Shown: positions 14,315 through 19,860 of the stretch, in pieces
How the letters are laid out: each line of letters starts with the position of its first letter
Numbering within the stretch: the first letter of the stretch is position 1
NCBI GenBank assembly: GCA_029262875.1
Contig: JAJCYO010000112.1
Coordinates: 1 to 63,410 of the forward strand
Length of the DNA: 63,410 nt
Direction: 5' to 3'
From: Flavobacteriales bacterium
GTDB lineage: Bacteria > Bacteroidota > Bacteroidia > Flavobacteriales_E > Vicingaceae
Program-made: the position numbers and the translations under genes
The notes under the pieces: generated by a model
Seen by the model: only the letters and a program-made list of their open reading frames with translations
Told to the model about the DNA's origin: nothing
Database searches by the model: none

Positions 14315-14393
14315 TAAAAGTAAATTTAGCACTAAGGCAATATTGTAACTTTTTTAACTTTATTTATTATACAAACAAGAACCCCGCATTAAC

Positions 14394-16592
14394 ATGAAAT
14401 CTGTTTTATTCAGTTTAAGTTGTCTTGTATCACTTTTAACTTTTTGTCAAACAAAAGGTGATGTTCGTTATTTAGATATTGAAAAAGCAGAAGCTTCACC
14501 TGATTCTATTGAATACCTCTTTTTGGATTGTAATACTGATAATTGTGATAAAGTCTTTTCAGAATTTAATTTATACTCGAATCTAAAAGGTGTTTACATT
14601 TCCAATTACGACAAGAAAACCATCGGAAAAAACATCAAAACCCTTTCAAAACTAGAGTCTTTAACCATTGAAAAATCACCTCAAATTAATTTGGGTAGGC
14701 TTTTTTCTGACATCGATGACAACGAAAACCTAAAGAGCATCTCTTTAAAAGACAACGACCTCACCAAGCTTCCCGCTAACATTAAAAATCTAAACAATTT
14801 AAAGTCCATCAACATCTCGAATAACAATAACTTAAATCTTGAAAAAACGATAGACCAAATTGCGGAACTTGAAAACTTAGAAGACATTTATTTGCCGGTA
14901 AACAGTATTACAGACTTACCAGACAACATTGCTTCGCTTAGTAACTTAAAGACACTTGACATTAGCAACAACTACTTGGAGGACTTGCCTGATGGGATTG
15001 GTGAATTAAGAAGTTTGGAAGAGCTTTACATTGAAGGAAATTTAATTCAGGATGCCGCTTCAAGTTTAGAAAAAGTTCAGAACATTAACCTAAAATACAT
15101 TGCTTTAGATGACGGCTTATCAGATAAGGAAAAAGAGCGGTTGAAAGAGCTTTTCCCAAATGCAGCAATAAAAGAAGTAGATGTTGACGAATCATTAGAT
15201 GAACAAATAGAAAATAACATTGATGAAAATGAAAACACTACAAATGACATCAGTACAAACGAAGTAATTCAATCTGAACCTGTAGAACCAGTACCACTTT
15301 TAACTGAAAAAGAAACCAACAACATCACTTATGGAGAGCTTAAAGTCTCAGAAAATAAACTGAAATTGTATTCTCAAGCTTACATTCATTATCCAGATGT
15401 ATTTAAGTTAAGGAGATTCTCCGTATATGACTCTACAATGTTTGAAGAACGTTTTATCGATACGACCTATGCCAACGTTACAAAAATTCAATATGCGAAC
15501 GTAAATCGAGGAGGAAACATAAACACCAGCATTTATGAAAAATTTAGGTTGTCAGAAAACAGGAACAATGTTAAAGGTGAGAATTGGTTTATATTTAGAG
15601 GTCATACTGCATCTCATTTAACGAGTAACAACCCTGAGTTAAATGCTTTTATTGGTATGTCGTGGGTACATGTTGGCAATCTTACAACTAAAGAGTTTAA
15701 GAATAAATACTTAAGAAGAAAGGGGTATAAATGGTACAAGCCAAGTTATTGGGGATATTTTAATAAATGGAAATTCTGGACAGATGTCCGAATTACCTAC
15801 AACAGTGAAGAACAGAATTTTACCCTTAAGCTAAAGGATCTTGATGGGTTTACTGAAATAACTGCTTATCCAAGGTACAATTCATTAAACAGGTCCATTG
15901 ATGATGCCCAAAATACTTATGTAAAAAGGTATGCTCGGTATTCAAAATCGTTAGATAGGCGAAAAAGAAGGTTTGAGAGACGTCATCAAAGGGATAAATC
16001 ATTGTTTGAAAGAAGCAATAAAGCCGCTGAAAACAAAAGGTGGAAGTCTTTTCAAAAGAATTACATGAGTGAGGAAGAAAGAAAATTAAGTAAAGAAGAA
16101 TGGCTAAAATATTATGACAAGGTAATTGCAAATGAAAGAAAAGCCATGGGTAATGCTACTGGAAGCATCAACAACATTACACGAAGTTTAGATTTAGACG
16201 GTTATAATAAAGGTTATTTATGGAATGCTCCAGGTCAACGTGATGTTAGTAACAGAACAGATACCTCTTTCATCCAACCCATTAGAACGTTGTATCAGGA
16301 CAAAGACAGTAACATGATAGCAGTTAAAAGAATTTTAATCATAGACAAAGACACCAAGAGTTACCAAACCTTTGAAGGTTCTTTAGGCATTAAAATGTTA
16401 CGTTTAAATTTAATAGAAGGGGCCAATGCCGTTTTTGTGGTTCAGTTGAGGAACGATGACATTGGATACGTTAAAAGCAATGTCTATCAGAACATTAAAT
16501 TTCCTAAGAGTAAAAAATATAAATTCACCTTAAGCACTATAAACATTAAGTTTGGGTCAGTTCAAATGATCCGAGAAGAACTTAATTTTTAA
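14394..16592 (+). CDS. Exported leucine-rich-repeat protein with a C-terminal region resembling the sigma-linked membrane protein
   Basis: 732 residues. The signal peptide is MKSVLFSLSCLVSLLTFCQ. Residues about 60-255 are LRRs (NLKSISLKDNDLTKLPANI, NLEDIYLPVNSITDLPDNI, NLKTLDISNNYLEDLPDGI), then an acidic linker to about 310. The last 320 residues belong to no family I recognise, but they align by eye with the protein at 17241-18833: PELNAFIGMSWVHVGN with PELEKYEGTIFEINES, and NFTLKLKDLDGFTEITAYP (475-493) with NYTLKLTREDSSIYLTVYP. A basic coiled stretch (about 505-590, many RR and KK) is inserted. No T9SS signal is seen. It precedes the ECF sigma gene by 59 nt and is probably a sensor or ligand of that system. 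Confidence 0.8.
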   Translation: MKSVLFSLSCLVSLLTFCQTKGDVRYLDIEKAEASPDSIEYLFLDCNTDNCDKVFSEFNLYSNLKGVYISNYDKKTIGKNIKTLSKLESLTIEKSPQINLGRLFSDIDDNENLKSISLKDNDLTKLPANIKNLNNLKSINISNNNNLNLEKTIDQIAELENLEDIYLPVNSITDLPDNIASLSNLKTLDISNNYLEDLPDGIGELRSLEELYIEGNLIQDAASSLEKVQNINLKYIALDDGLSDKEKERLKELFPNAAIKEVDVDESLDEQIENNIDENENTTNDISTNEVIQSEPVEPVPLLTEKETNNITYGELKVSENKLKLYSQAYIHYPDVFKLRRFSVYDSTMFEERFIDTTYANVTKIQYANVNRGGNINTSIYEKFRLSENRNNVKGENWFIFRGHTASHLTSNNPELNAFIGMSWVHVGNLTTKEFKNKYLRRKGYKWYKPSYWGYFNKWKFWTDVRITYNSEEQNFTLKLKDLDGFTEITAYPRYNSLNRSIDDAQNTYVKRYARYSKSLDRRKRRFERRHQRDKSLFERSNKAAENKRWKSFQKNYMSEEERKLSKEEWLKYYDKVIANERKAMGNATGSINNITRSLDLDGYNKGYLWNAPGQRDVSNRTDTSFIQPIRTLYQDKDSNMIAVKRILIIDKDTKSYQTFEGSLGIKMLRLNLIEGANAVFVVQLRNDDIGYVKSNVYQNIKFPKSKKYKFTLSTINIKFGSVQMIREELNF

Positions 16593-16651
16593 GTTTTTTT
16601 ATTTTTTCTGTAACTTTTTATTGGATTGAACTTATAGTTTAAACAGCAAAC

Positions 16652-17218
16652 ATGAACCCTCAAACATCAGAACATCATTTTAGCGCAAAGCAGCTCTCTT
16701 CGGAAGAAGGAGACATCAAACGTGCTAAAAAGGATCTCAAGCATTTTAACGTGCTTTATGACAGGTATTATGTGCGTATTTTTCAATACATCTACCAAAG
16801 GGTACAAACAGAAAGCCAGGCCGCAGACATTACATCGGATACATTTATAAAAGCAATGGAGAATTTACAATCCTATAAATTTATGGGAGTTCCTTTTGCT
16901 TCTTGGTTGTTTAGGATTGCTCGAAATGAAGTTTACCTACAACATAAGAAGAATTCAAAGATTAGACAAGTCAACTTCTCAACTGATGACATTAGCCATA
17001 TTGCAGAAGAGATTGAAGAAGTAACTAAAAATAGAACAATGCTTGTTGTGGATGCCATTAAAGACTTAAATAGTGAGGAAACCGAACTAATCGAAATGAA
17101 ATATTTTGAAAAACGCTCCTATGCTGAAATAGCAAGTATCCTTAACATAAATGAAAACAATGCAAAAGTGAAAACTTTTAGAGTAGTTCAGAAACTAAAA
17201 GCCATCATCAACCCCTAA
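16652..17218 (+). CDS. ECF-type RNA polymerase sigma factor
   Basis: 188 residues. Region 2 covers about residues 35-105 (LYDRYYVRIFQYIYQR, SDTFIKAMENL, FASWLFRIARNEV). Region 4 covers about 131-188 (EETELIEMKYFEKRSYAEIA, then a helix-turn-helix with INENNAKVKTFR). There is no region 1 or 3, as in ECF sigmas, which redirect polymerase in response to an envelope signal. The next gene, 22 nt downstream, encodes a single-pass membrane protein in the usual anti-sigma position. Confidence 0.93.
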   Translation: MNPQTSEHHFSAKQLSSEEGDIKRAKKDLKHFNVLYDRYYVRIFQYIYQRVQTESQAADITSDTFIKAMENLQSYKFMGVPFASWLFRIARNEVYLQHKKNSKIRQVNFSTDDISHIAEEIEEVTKNRTMLVVDAIKDLNSEETELIEMKYFEKRSYAEIASILNINENNAKVKTFRVVQKLKAIINP

Positions 17219-17240
17219 TAACAACTGAAAATAGAAAGCT

Positions 17241-18833
17241 ATGGAAAATACATCATATAAGAAGGATAGACCTCAATTGTCAGAAAACGAAATTCTAAAA
17301 AACAAAGACTTTAATGCGGCATTAAAAAATGCAGCACCAAAAGGAAATGCGTTTCTTAAGTCGATAAAATATTGGGGAACGGGCGGAGTAGCAACAATTG
17401 CAATCATTGCGTCTATCTACTTGTTTAACAACAAGACTAACATCCAAAATGATAGCCCAAATGAAAATTTTACTTACCAACCTACGGATGGGTTAAGCCA
17501 ATTAACAGCCATTAAACCTCCTTTTTTAGAGCATGACATTGCTTATGAGGTTTTTGAAATAGACTGTTCTAAAGATGCCCAGATTATTACTAAAAGTGGG
17601 ACAATATTTAGCGTTGCTAAAAACAGCTTAACTGATATTGAAGGGAATCCTATTACTGGGATTGCAGAAATACATTATAGAGAATTAAGAGACCCTGTAG
17701 ATTTCTTTTTGAGTGGAATTCCTATGGAATATGATTCTGCTGGAACTACTTATACTTTTGAATCAGCAGGAATGCTTGACATTAAAGCCTTTCAAAATGA
17801 AGCTCCACTCCTATTGGCAGAAAACAAAACCATCGATTTTGAATTTAACTCTACTACGAGTGATGATGGGTTTAATTTTTATAGCTTAAATGAAGAGACA
17901 GGTGTTTGGAGTATGGAAGATCAGTGTATTAATGTAGAAAATGAAGAAGCTCCCCAAACTCAAAATAAAACTACAGCTCCTTCTATTGCTACGCAGCAAC
18001 CAATAACACCAATAAAACAGAACAAAGTGAAATACAGTTTAAATTTAGCAGTTAACAAAACTGATTACCCAGAATTGGAAAAATATGAAGGGACCATTTT
18101 CGAAATCAATGAATCTGCAGAAAAATTTAACCCCGTAGTTTATAAAATACAATGGGAAAATGCTGTGCTGTCTGATTCTAAAATTAAAGACAACTACACC
18201 TTAAAACTGACAAGAGAAGACTCCAGCATTTATTTAACAGTATACCCAGTAGTAAAAGATGCTTATTACAAAAAAGCAATTGCGCAATACCATAAAGAAA
18301 TGGTTGCCTATAAAAAGAATTCAAACAATAATCATGATGATTTTGATGCTTATGAAGATGATAGTGACTTATCGGTATCGGCTGAAATAAACAATGAAAT
18401 AACAGGAGTCTTTTATAGCAATAGTAAAAGACGTGTTACCTTAGCTTCTGTAGGGTTTGGAGCTGTTAGAAGAACATTTAGACTCGCCAGCCTTGGTGTA
18501 GCGAACTGTGACATGATTCAGCCTCCTATGAGACTACCTAACCTTATTGCAAAGAAGAAAACGGTGGATAAGAATGGAAAAGACTTGAAAGTAAAGAATT
18601 ATTATGTGGCTAACTTGCAACGTAATGCCATTCAATCACTTACCAATACAGGTGGAATAAAGTATTACCGAAGAGGTGAAAGTGTAGCGTGGTTTGTTGG
18701 TGAAGATGGTTTTATCTCCATTGCACACCCAAAACAATTTGAGAACATTAAAAACGCTGATGCACTTCAATTTCACATTTACCCAACCCGACAAGGAATT
18801 GATGTACTTAGAGATTTGATGGCCTCAAAATAA
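17241..18833 (+). CDS. Single-pass membrane protein, putative anti-sigma factor/sensor with novel extracytoplasmic domain
   Basis: 530 residues. About 43 N-terminal residues are probably cytoplasmic (QLSENEILKNKDFNAALKNA), followed by one TM helix (about 44-62) and some 465 residues outside the inner membrane. This layout and the gene position fit an anti-sigma factor, although no ASD or FecR motif was recognised. Residues about 85-215 look like a beta-domain (KSGTIFSVAKNSLTDIEGNPITG). Residues about 277-530 align by eye with the C-terminus of the LRR protein at 14394: N318-P336 block, and RRGESVAWFVGEDGFI with IEGANAVFVVQLRNDDI. Not a recognised family; its role is inferred from layout. Confidence 0.7.
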   Translation: MENTSYKKDRPQLSENEILKNKDFNAALKNAAPKGNAFLKSIKYWGTGGVATIAIIASIYLFNNKTNIQNDSPNENFTYQPTDGLSQLTAIKPPFLEHDIAYEVFEIDCSKDAQIITKSGTIFSVAKNSLTDIEGNPITGIAEIHYRELRDPVDFFLSGIPMEYDSAGTTYTFESAGMLDIKAFQNEAPLLLAENKTIDFEFNSTTSDDGFNFYSLNEETGVWSMEDQCINVENEEAPQTQNKTTAPSIATQQPITPIKQNKVKYSLNLAVNKTDYPELEKYEGTIFEINESAEKFNPVVYKIQWENAVLSDSKIKDNYTLKLTREDSSIYLTVYPVVKDAYYKKAIAQYHKEMVAYKKNSNNNHDDFDAYEDDSDLSVSAEINNEITGVFYSNSKRRVTLASVGFGAVRRTFRLASLGVANCDMIQPPMRLPNLIAKKKTVDKNGKDLKVKNYYVANLQRNAIQSLTNTGGIKYYRRGESVAWFVGEDGFISIAHPKQFENIKNADALQFHIYPTRQGIDVLRDLMASK

Positions 18834-18854: not shown

Positions 18855-19772
18855 TTAGATTAATAGCAAAGATGTTGAGAAAACAAATCCAATAAACAAC
18901 AAAGCCAAGATTAAATATCCAAAAACCAAAAGGAAATACTTGTATATGGCTATCCACCATTTTCGATCATAGAAGACCATTACTGCTTTAATCAGGTAAA
19001 ATTGTCCAAATAAAGCAATAAGTAATATCCATGCATACTCAATCAATTCATTGGTTATCAGCAAATCAACAAGCAGAAAAATCATTAATGAGAATATAAT
19101 AAAAGAATTAAGGTGGAGGTTAAACATTAAATGGCCAACAAATCCTTTTTTGCTGCCACTAAAGACTGTAGCATAAAGCAATGAAAAGAAGGGTAGAAAC
19201 AACAACAAAAAGAGAGAGAAGGTTTCATTAAACATATCCCAATATTGTTCATCGTTTATCTTCATCATGGCCACCTTCTTAGATACATAAGCAGCGAATT
19301 CTGGCATTTCAGCCGTTAATGAATCTAAGCCTTCATCTAAGTTACCTTCATAATCCATTCGTTTCAAATCGGAAGTAGGTATAACTATATTTACACTATC
19401 CAGCGTAAAAGTAACTCCATCTATTTTGGCTTGTTCTTCAGGTACATTACTAAAAGAAAAACTGGATTCAGAAGCATCTCCAAATTCAATTACAGAAATT
19501 AAAAAGAAAAAGAGAACACTAATGACAATGTAAAGTCTAATTGGAGGGACATAGTGTACTCTTTTCCCATCAATGTATTCCTTAGTTAAAAAACCAGGCT
19601 TAAGTGAAAGGTATTTAATGGTTCTAAATACTTTAGAGTCTACATTGAAAATGTCTTCAACAAATTGGCTAAAAATGTACTTTAAATTAAGCCTATCAAT
19701 GTTCTTTTGTCCACAATTGGAACAAAATTTCTCTTGTCCGTTTAACGCTTCATTGCAATTTTTACAGTTCAT
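18855..19772 (-). CDS. DUF3667 zinc-ribbon membrane protein
   Basis: The ATG at 19772 gives 305 residues; the longer frame starts at a TTG. An N-terminal zinc ribbon has two pairs, CKNC and CSNC. The DUF3667 hallmark follows (KYLSLKPGFLTKEYIDGKR, then VHYVPPIRLYIVISVLFFF). About five hydrophobic segments make up the rest. The family is common in Bacteroidota and has no assigned function. It converges on the putative anti-sigma gene with no clear terminator hairpin in the 21-nt gap. Confidence 0.85.
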   Translation of the reverse strand: MNCKNCNEALNGQEKFCSNCGQKNIDRLNLKYIFSQFVEDIFNVDSKVFRTIKYLSLKPGFLTKEYIDGKRVHYVPPIRLYIVISVLFFFLISVIEFGDASESSFSFSNVPEEQAKIDGVTFTLDSVNIVIPTSDLKRMDYEGNLDEGLDSLTAEMPEFAAYVSKKVAMMKINDEQYWDMFNETFSLFLLLFLPFFSLLYATVFSGSKKGFVGHLMFNLHLNSFIIFSLMIFLLVDLLITNELIEYAWILLIALFGQFYLIKAVMVFYDRKWWIAIYKYFLLVFGYLILALLFIGFVFSTSLLLI

Positions 19773-19860
19773 CCTACACAATAATATTGAATATTAACCT
19801 CATAAGCAATTTTGTTAATAAATTATGAAATCAATAATGGCTTAAAACATCACTAATAAT

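Follow-up and report, generated by a model that had tools for sequence, protein, structure and literature searches.

An exported leucine-rich-repeat protein and a probable membrane anti-sigma factor with a common C-terminal domain flank an ECF sigma factor gene in a Flavobacteriales bacterium

What might an exported protein and a membrane protein do on either side of a sigma factor gene if both end in the same domain? This question is raised by contig JAJCYO010000112.1 (GenBank assembly GCA_029262875.1) of a Flavobacteriales bacterium of the family Vicingaceae, of which a stretch of 63,410 nucleotides, here called the window, was analyzed. A gene for an extracytoplasmic function (ECF) sigma factor (P2) is located there between genes coding for an exported leucine-rich-repeat (LRR) protein (P1) and a single-pass membrane protein (P3), and all three open reading frames (ORFs) have the coordinates given in a preliminary description of the sequence. 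We propose that the products constitute a cell-envelope signaling unit, in which P3 would be the membrane anti-sigma factor of P2 and P1 an exported feedback partner, and assign this reading a probability of roughly 55%. The genes, with the domain that links P1 to P3, are as follows.

14394..16592, + strand: P1, exported LRR protein of 732 amino acids (ORF, Pfam, AlphaFold2 [AF2] model with mean pLDDT 79.0)
14571..15179, + strand: LRR region of P1, residues ~60-262 (Pfam, fold match of the model)
15576..16589, + strand: shared C-domain of P1, residues 395-732, including a basic coil (hhalign comparison with the C-domain of P3)
15891-16196, + strand: basic coil in the C-domain of P1, residues ~500-601 (coil lengths, charge)
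16652..17218, + strand: P2, ECF sigma factor of 188 amino acids with regions 2 and 4 (Pfam)
17241..18833, + strand: P3, single-pass membrane protein of 530 amino acids, probable anti-sigma factor (ORF, AF2 model with mean pLDDT 79.7)
18024..18830, + strand: shared C-domain of P3, residues 262-530, with an embedded hairpin (profile comparison, AF2 model)

The C-termini of P1 and P3 are homologous and represent one common unnamed domain, as the preliminary description had claimed from matching blocks. Pairwise BLASTP gave a suggestive match (E value of 0.031, 27% identity, 70 columns, partly over the coil) that was too weak to carry a homology claim, so that profiles were needed. Using hhalign, P1 residues 395-732 (8 sequences, one identical row left out) and P3 residues 262-530 (15 sequences) aligned over 229 columns with a probability of 95.3, an E value of 2.3e-8, and a score of 62.2, compared to 24.4 and 23.5 for reversed profiles and at most 23.6 in 100 column shuffles. 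Taken alone, the part preceding the coil scored 25.0, with no shuffle above 17.1, and the part following it scored 38.7, with no shuffle above 21.1. With 16 P1 and 77 P3 sequences (L065, L079, L093, and L099 are omitted from the P3 alignment), the probability was 98.9, the E value 3.1e-17, and the score 127.1 (60 shuffles, at most 21.9), with 48.0 and 58.5 for the two parts separately; the score was still 117.0 after removal of three P1 sequences matched directly by the P3 hidden Markov model. Moreover, the order of secondary-structure elements matched in the AF2 models of both C-domains: a helix at the PEL motif, a strand, a helix, three strands, and a long helix at the beginning, and a series of strands closing with strand, helix, strand, and helix at the end. 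A hairpin of P3 (residues 405-429) had no strand counterpart in the P1 model. Bridging proteins were matched by the P1 and P3 profiles across one same stretch. Similarity by chance or through coiled-coil composition, for which the weak BLASTP match partly over the coil could be cited, was ruled out by the shuffles, the coil-free parts, the bridging proteins, and the models, and its probability is close to nil. The P1 copy had also been described as carrying an inserted basic coil. The P1 version is indeed longer and basic, with a nearly constant length of 86-91 residues among the 15 P1 sequences covering this place and a net charge of +13 over residues 500-557, but the coil is not a wholly new insert, because P3 proteins have a helical excursion at the same place (36-94 residues, median 65, in 77 P3s; 64 in the P3 of the window).

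The second question is whether P3 controls P2. P2 matched Sigma70_r2 (4.5e-12, 46.0 bits, cutoff 24) and Sigma70_r4_2 (1.4e-9, 37.9 bits, cutoff 25.7), and no region-3 model was among the seven Pfam families listed, which identifies it as an ECF factor. It stayed below the cutoffs of TIGR02952 (100.7 bits, cutoff 206.45) and of TIGR02985, which stands for ECF21 (65.1 bits, cutoff 126.4). P3 itself matched no Pfam family at an E value of ≤10 and no NCBIfam family at ≤1, and searches of PDB sequences by phmmer and profiles gave no relevant match. Two parts of P3 bear on its relation to P2.

17241..17384, + strand: cytosolic tail of P3, residues 1-48, candidate sigma-binding segment (conserved R10, I18, F24, and K40)
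17385..17444, + strand: transmembrane helix of P3, residues ~49-68 (model helix 49-62; a hydropathy rule was used for relatives)

A first contig scan with P3 alone yielded no relative; an alignment search yielded 373 matches, of which 80 were kept as named loci. Named records and the genomes labeled G overlap (G026/L037, G143/L056/L154, and G233/L091/L153), and their counts were not summed. An ECF gene immediately preceded the examined P3 gene in 64 of the 80 named loci (at L093 it precedes the other one of two P3 genes), with a median gap of 20 nucleotides (n = 61). The N-termini were compared in 90 distinct relatives, counting identical ones once and excluding the window's own P3 (L001, L003-L010, L018, L019, and L022, i.e., this P3 and repeat loci, were skipped). 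A cytosolic tail precedes the helix in each of the 69 relatives whose P3 gene adjoins a sigma gene; an automatic tail-and-helix rule recognized 68 of them, and the helix of the remaining one, L113, fell just below the hydropathy cut. Among 21 relatives without an adjacent sigma gene, 15 were tailless, comprising nine with a lipoprotein pattern (several near-identical, L093 doubtful), two LRR fusions (L016 and L017), and four that start at the membrane anchor (L077, L089, L096, and L107). Four others (L082, L087, L090, and L101) passed the rule via an overlong ORF start but lacked the tail motif by eye, and L054 and L071 had too little upstream DNA for the tail to be judged. In 62 sequences with a sigma gene, R10 was conserved in 53, I18 in 51, F24 in 60, and K40 in 51. 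Sigma factor distances correlated with the distances of the P3 ectodomain (r = 0.892) as well as with those of tail plus helix (r = 0.825; n = 62 and 0/1,000 permutations for both). Mainly because the tail follows the sigma gene and the distances correlate, P3 is probably the membrane anti-sigma factor of P2, in line with the preliminary proposal. AF2 predicted three short, low-confidence helices in the 48 residues before the transmembrane helix, unlike the four-helix domain of class I anti-sigma factors. In length and layout, to which this comparison was confined, the tail fits a short segment followed by one transmembrane helix. A short cytosolic sigma-binding segment of this kind characterizes class II-like anti-sigma factors such as CnrY. 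That P3 is merely coproduced with the sigma factor and its tail serves another role is quite unlikely: the absence of a Pfam match and the low confidence of the tail helices would suit this view, but tail presence tracks the sigma gene, sigma and tail distances correlate, and gene order and spacing are as in sigma/anti-sigma pairs.

P3-type proteins are common. At E ≤ 1e-3, 16 of the 46 genomes from the window's family contained one, and at E ≤ 1e-10, 171 of 395 sampled Bacteroidia genomes did, counting LRR fusions and members without a sigma gene; the P1 C-domain profile matched 37 of the 395 (E ≤ 1e-3, fusions included). Some members showed features of their own. The sigma-less, lipoprotein-like P3s of L039-L042 and L045 have acidic residues soon after the cysteine, presumably as in surface-exposed Bacteroidota lipoproteins. 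The P3s of two LRR triads (L044:5971-7899 and L088:5755-7602), picked by eye, have a C-terminus resembling a sorting domain of the type IX secretion system (T9SS), and Por_Secre_tail matched 2 of 77 P3 members (best E value, 4.5e-14); such a signal was unexpected on proteins with a cytosolic tail and a membrane helix. At L024 (1276-3405) and L025 (1273-3363), an ECF-like gene (by eye) is followed by one for a large protein weakly matching the P3 N-domain, which in L024 carries a PPIC rotamase domain.

If P3 is an anti-sigma factor, what does it expose outside? Two segments of its ectodomain appear to make up one fold.

17508..17945, + strand: ZU5/GAIN-like core of P3, residues ~90-235 (AF2 pLDDT mostly >90; VIA-align matches)
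18453..18527, + strand: beta hairpin of P3, residues 405-429, apparently closing the ZU5/GAIN-like fold (conservation, ends of GAIN chains)

When the P3 model was compared using VIA-align, ZU5, GAIN, and FIIND domains occupied ranks 1 to 16 with Z scores of 10.3 to 6.2, followed by 3.6 for the next match. Ankyrin-B was best (Z of 10.3, root mean square deviation of 2.6 over 125), and the others included CD97 (9.6), BAI3 (9.0), CELSR1 (8.9), NLRP1 (7.6), GPR56 (7.0), UNC5b (6.7), and latrophilins (6.4 and 6.2); with this method, which gives alignment ends only, Z scores of 7 to 8 are common even for models that have no clear match. Since Foldseek found no significant match for the same model (best E value, 0.25), the likeness rests on this second look. 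Sequence profiles offered no support, as P3 had no Pfam match at an E value of ≤10, and for 76 relatives no ZU5, GPS, GAIN, or FIIND family was among the matches listed (25 of 116 families). Core and hairpin together are thus best described as a predicted ZU5/GAIN-like beta-sandwich. ZU5, GPS, and Nup98 autoproteolytic domains have been grouped into a single superfamily, whose bacterial members occur in surface proteins and toxins (PMC3482391). At model residue 418, three GAIN chains terminate: GPR56 with residue 382, latrophilin-1 with 837, and latrophilin-3 with 854. The N-terminal fragment of GPR56 ends at 382 and T383A abolishes cleavage (PMC7948743), and latrophilin-1 uses T838 as nucleophile and H836 as base (PMC13062082). 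With the chains ending at 418, G419 of P3 occupies the nucleophile position. This position is Gly in 76 and Ala in 1 of 77 P3s, and N422 and D424 are invariant (77/77). Two places before it, Ser, Gly, and Asn are the commonest residues and His is outside the seven listed, so that the H-x-S/T motif is lacking. Because Gly stands in place of the nucleophile, the modeled P3 should not cleave itself there. The hairpin motif was present in 76 of 77 P3s and absent from all 15 P1s and all 3 LRR-C-domain proteins. It occurred in 12 of 16 fusions that bear the core (not in L156, L168, L169, and L172), which makes the pairing of hairpin and core imperfect at this motif.

These fusions bear on the origin of P1. 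Among 20 loci from the P1 C-domain search, 8 encode an LRR, the P3 N-domain, and a C-domain matched by both profiles, and 5 more the P3 N-domain and such a C-domain without an LRR match; L153, L154, and L155 are P1-sigma-P3 triads and L156 is a disturbed triad. In an unrooted tree of 59 C-domains (without the P1s of L038, L041, and L045 and 48 of the 77 P3 rows), P1 proteins (support of 99/93) and P3 proteins (100/99) formed groups with the fusions between them, L159/L162 being nearest to P1 plus the LRR-C-domain proteins. According to this tree, the two C-domains are old paralogs and not the product of a recent duplication. A comparison of P1 with the P3 N-domain gave no sign of a remnant of the latter (hhalign probability of 0.2 to 0.3). 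In the simplest reading, P1 descended from an LRR-core-C-domain protein after loss of the core, and not from a recent copy of P3. A single exported protein with LRR, ZU5/GAIN-like core, and C-domain is encoded at L159, L162, L163, L166, L168, L169, L170, L172, L016, and L017, and the fusion genes of L159 and L169 adjoin a divergent ECF gene. At L160, L161, and L164, genes for LRR-C-domain proteins are oriented divergently to an ECF gene, after which comes an ORF of 100 to 113 residues that may encode a separate anti-sigma factor.

How, then, is P1 connected to the pair of P2 and P3? Unforeseen by the preliminary description, P1 appears to be transcribed under the control of the sigma factor, to judge from two upstream elements.

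14344..14371, + strand: promoter-like element TGTAAC-N17-TTATA before the P1 gene (0 mismatches)
16609..16636, + strand: promoter-like element TGTAAC-N17-TTATA before the sigma gene (exact match)

The first ends 22 bases ahead of P1 and the second 15 bases ahead of the sigma gene, and they are the sole matches in the window to the two-part element with up to two mismatches. As shuffled sequences contained this element at least twice in 23 of 100 cases, weight is placed on the exact matches, the count over the whole genome, and the relatives. The pattern TGTAACTTTTN{12,14}TTAT matched five times in the genome (3.94 Mb), two of them at this locus, and a control pattern once; none of the three other matches was clearly before a gene start when the surrounding ORFs were inspected, and we claim no wider regulon. 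Similar elements precede P1 in L037/G026, G010, L043, and L044. Matches at P1 and the sigma gene made up 2 of 3 genome-wide matches in G026 and 2 of 2 in G010, where the second overlaps a called sigma start that is probably overlong. Over the genome scans of relatives, the control pattern matched 16 times and the true pattern 14 times, and it is the position of the matches that decides. In 65 regions upstream of sigma genes, GTATCT occurred in 36 (2.1 expected), TGTAAC in 19 (2.8), and CGTTAT in 27 (3.1). A looser fixed pattern, counted with the window included and for genes with at least 150 bases of upstream DNA (this leaves out, e.g., the P1 of L038), was found upstream of 39/66 sigma genes, 7/10 P1 genes of triads, 0/5 P1 genes without sigma, 4/81 P3 genes, and 9/651 other ORFs; post hoc correction of the P1 start of L115 raised the triad count to 8/10. 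In Fisher tests, triad P1 genes differed from other ORFs at 1.2e-10 and sigma genes did so at 7e-38, and triad P1 differed from sigma-less P1 at 0.026. At six loci with strict matches before both P1 and sigma, both carried the same variant (TGTAAC in four, TGTATC in two). Six genomes with a P1-P3 pair but no sigma gene had no match on the contig of the pair. Scans for generic sigma-70 promoters and terminators stayed below the shuffled mean, and TGTAACTTTTT with one mismatch was at chance level in the window (6 versus 6.1 expected). For Flavobacterium psychrophilum ECF factors, motif SM6 includes a CGT box within the -10 region (PMC9723704), with which the element is compatible. Four genes near P3 (L073:4318, L099:1476, L103:4795, and L114:7803) account for four of the nine matches at other ORFs; those of L073, L099, and L103 belong to a small cluster, TonB-C-like by eye, and that of L114 clusters with an FGE-sulfatase-type protein of L111. 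Partner genes of other lineages may be sigma targets as well.

The preliminary description had further suggested that P1 and P3 act as a sensing pair and had named co-occurrence of the three genes across genomes as a check. The pairing holds: P1 was found by sequence search in 9 of the 46 genomes of the family and always beside P3 (in G010, P1 is split across two contigs, one bearing sigma and P3). A profile search added two weak matches of another kind, one in an LRR-P3 fusion. Only P1 and P3 stay together, however, as the sigma gene is present at the locus in three of the nine genomes (G000, G026, and G010) and absent there in six (G016, G020, G028, G008, G009, and G013), whose P3s are lipoprotein-like and tailless and whose P1s have no LRR. 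Among the 80 named loci, P1 was present in 15, comprising 10 with and 5 without sigma. All 16 P1-partnered P3s, including that of the window, were on one side of one branch (SH-aLRT support of 96) in a quick tree that gave long-branch warnings, and in the more careful C-domain tree described above all 14 of those included grouped together (96/81). P1 distances correlated with P3 distances (r = 0.954, n = 15 without the fragment of L038, 0/5,000 permutations). At loci without P1, an exported partner is frequently encoded behind P3, belonging to a cluster of 24 proteins or to one of 18 (~210 residues). Because none of the 15 P1 loci carries either, the partner slot seems to be filled in alternative ways. 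The tested downstream clusters showed no relation to the C-domain (hhalign probability of at most 0.5). In the 24-protein cluster, an exported protein of ~235 residues (L046:7636-8334) matched GldM_3rd (1.6e-4) and GldM_4th (8.9e-4) below the cutoffs. The downstream protein of L012 matched GldM_4th at the cutoff (4.1e-5), that of L018 matched GldM more weakly, and L049, the sole tested member of the second cluster, had no Pfam match. GldM is part of the T9SS/gliding motor, and the GldM-like partners hint that certain sigma systems of this type might monitor that machinery.

These patterns bear on two other accounts of P1. It could be output only, next to an ordinary sigma/P3 pair, with the C-domain a common Bacteroidota envelope module whose copies never meet. 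The sigma-type element before P1, the ancient separation in the C-domain tree, and the LRR proteins with a C-domain outside triads all suit this account; we nevertheless regard it as unlikely, given that six genomes of the family keep P1 beside P3 without sigma, tail, or promoter element, that P1-partnered P3s group, and that P1 loci are without the two common downstream clusters. Alternatively, and in keeping with the preliminary proposal that the two copies may bind each other or compete for one ligand and so release the sigma factor, P1 could be a ligand-binding coreceptor and activator, whose LRR binds an outside molecule or surface, whereupon the C-domains interact and the sigma factor is released. 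Homologous domains in both partners would fit, and the LRR is missing in the same genomes as sigma, tail, and promoter element, as expected if it serves the signal. Since a status of P1 as sigma target agrees at least equally well with feedback, this account, with its presumed contact, is quite unlikely.

We therefore return to P1 as feedback partner, which would explain the shared domain, the promoter element, and the coinheritance at once. In this signaling unit, the short cytosolic tail of P3 would hold the sigma factor, and its outer part, in which a ZU5/GAIN-like module and the C-domain are intertwined, would sense an envelope cue together with P1, whose LRR might supply a recognition surface. 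Once released by P3, the sigma factor would use two copies of one promoter, the first driving its own gene together with that of P3 and the second driving P1. Newly made P1 would then feed back on P3, most likely damping or resetting the response; amplification is also possible. In duos without sigma, the contact of P1 and P3, if real, would have been retained for another use. We infer the binding of tail and sigma factor, the use of the element by the sigma factor, the binding of P1 to P3, and the sign of the feedback. Several points weigh against this proposal. The protein contacts are proposed on indirect grounds; the separate C-domain groups of P1 and P3, as well as proteins with LRR, core, and C-domain outside the sigma-P1-P3 arrangement, indicate that a common domain need not mean contact. 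The persistence of P1-P3 duos without sigma implies some use of both that is independent of it. Permutation of distances leaves common species history in place. The strict promoter pattern is missing at 3 of 10 triad P1 genes (L074, L088, and L115) and at the triad sigma genes of L051, L088, and L115, and P1 and sigma may be cotranscribed.

Of the remaining features, the N-terminus of P1 was judged by eye to be a signal peptide, and no T9SS sorting domain was among its family matches. Its LRR exceeded the Pfam cutoffs of LRR_8 (46.5 bits, cutoff 27), LRR_4 (44 bits, 27), and LRR_14 (49.3 bits, 40), and LRR chains filled the list of PDB matches to its model (VIA-align, best Z of 20.5). SH3DP in Pfam and LRR-type families in NCBIfam matched below threshold. 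Matches to XopAC, XopL, and XopAE, with scores far below the cutoffs, were dismissed as LRR similarity. A gene of the sodium:sulfate symporter type is located upstream of P1 on the same strand, and a DUF3667 gene (18855-19781, - strand) directly follows P3 on the opposite strand.

Is such a system known? The preliminary description had known of none with this arrangement, and none turned up in our literature search, sparse in subscription papers, which likewise yielded no description of the sensor architecture, the paralogous partner, or the exchange of partners; a sigma factor with a membrane anti-sigma factor and an exported modulator is an already known kind. RpoE, RseA, and RseB are such a sigma factor, membrane anti-sigma factor, and periplasmic modulator. 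Like them, the locus encodes a sigma factor, a single-pass anti-sigma candidate, and an exported partner alongside, with the sigma factor apparently controlling its own operon. In contrast to RseB, P1 combines an LRR with a homolog of a domain in the anti-sigma candidate's own ectodomain and is encoded upstream with its own promoter element, and no RseA or RseB family was among the Pfam and NCBIfam matches. In Bacteroides, Dma/Das systems pair a dual membrane-spanning anti-sigma factor with an ECF21 sigma factor (PMC13088901). They share with P2-P3 the phylum and a sigma gene beside that of a membrane anti-sigma factor with a large outer part, and Dma2 is encoded in a three-gene operon. Dma has a long disordered tether and a C-terminal beta-barrel, whereas the P3 model has a compact module of ZU5/GAIN type plus the C-domain. 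The folded ectodomain of P3 starts at about residue 90, some 25 residues past the helix, unlike a Dma tether, and the strands of the model are short (3 to 11 residues), its matches being to ZU5/GAIN domains. P2 is below the cutoff of TIGR02985, the ECF21 family. RsgI/SigI (PMC12203970) resemble P3 by a short cytosolic sigma-binding part (a candidate in P3), one helix, and outer domains; they occur in Bacilli and Clostridia, and the outer domain of RsgI autocleaves, while P3 has no nucleophile at the GAIN point and no Pfam match. With ankyrin, UNC5, CD97, latrophilin, GPR56, and NLRP1, P3 shares its predicted fold and the register of the cleavage point; it differs from them in Gly in place of the Ser/Thr nucleophile, no conserved His two places before, no profile match, a hairpin that follows a 170-residue excursion, and its extracytoplasmic, sigma-linked setting. 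PIDD1-type proteins have an LRR-ZU5 layout. Their ZU5 domain autocleaves (PMC3482391, as cited above), and an LRR beside a ZU5-like core recurs in the bacterial LRR-core-C-domain fusions; PIDD1 is a cytosolic animal protein with a death domain and is likened by layout, not sequence.

In Bacteroidetes, a class I anti-sigma factor is encoded close to only 6% of ECF factors, compared to 32% over all phyla, and other control has been suspected (PMC7406223). The P3 family represents a concrete candidate for such control, with a conserved short tail, a recognizable promoter motif, and a defined exported partner, and a ZU5/GAIN-like domain on a bacterial anti-sigma factor would link envelope signaling to a fold of animal adhesion receptors and inflammasomes. 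Tentatively, and at somewhat less than even odds, we suggest a widespread undescribed class of Bacteroidota anti-sigma factors with a noncleaving ZU5/GAIN-like sensor, interlaced with a second domain, and an interchangeable exported partner. If this is true, the P3 sensor would be the bacterial equivalent of the GAIN module that force or ligand gates in adhesion receptors; the partner would be, here, a sigma-controlled LRR protein with a paralog of the anti-sigma factor's outer domain and, elsewhere, a GldM-like, ~210-residue, or FGE-type protein; and the class would cover some of the Bacteroidota ECF factors that have no class I anti-sigma factor.

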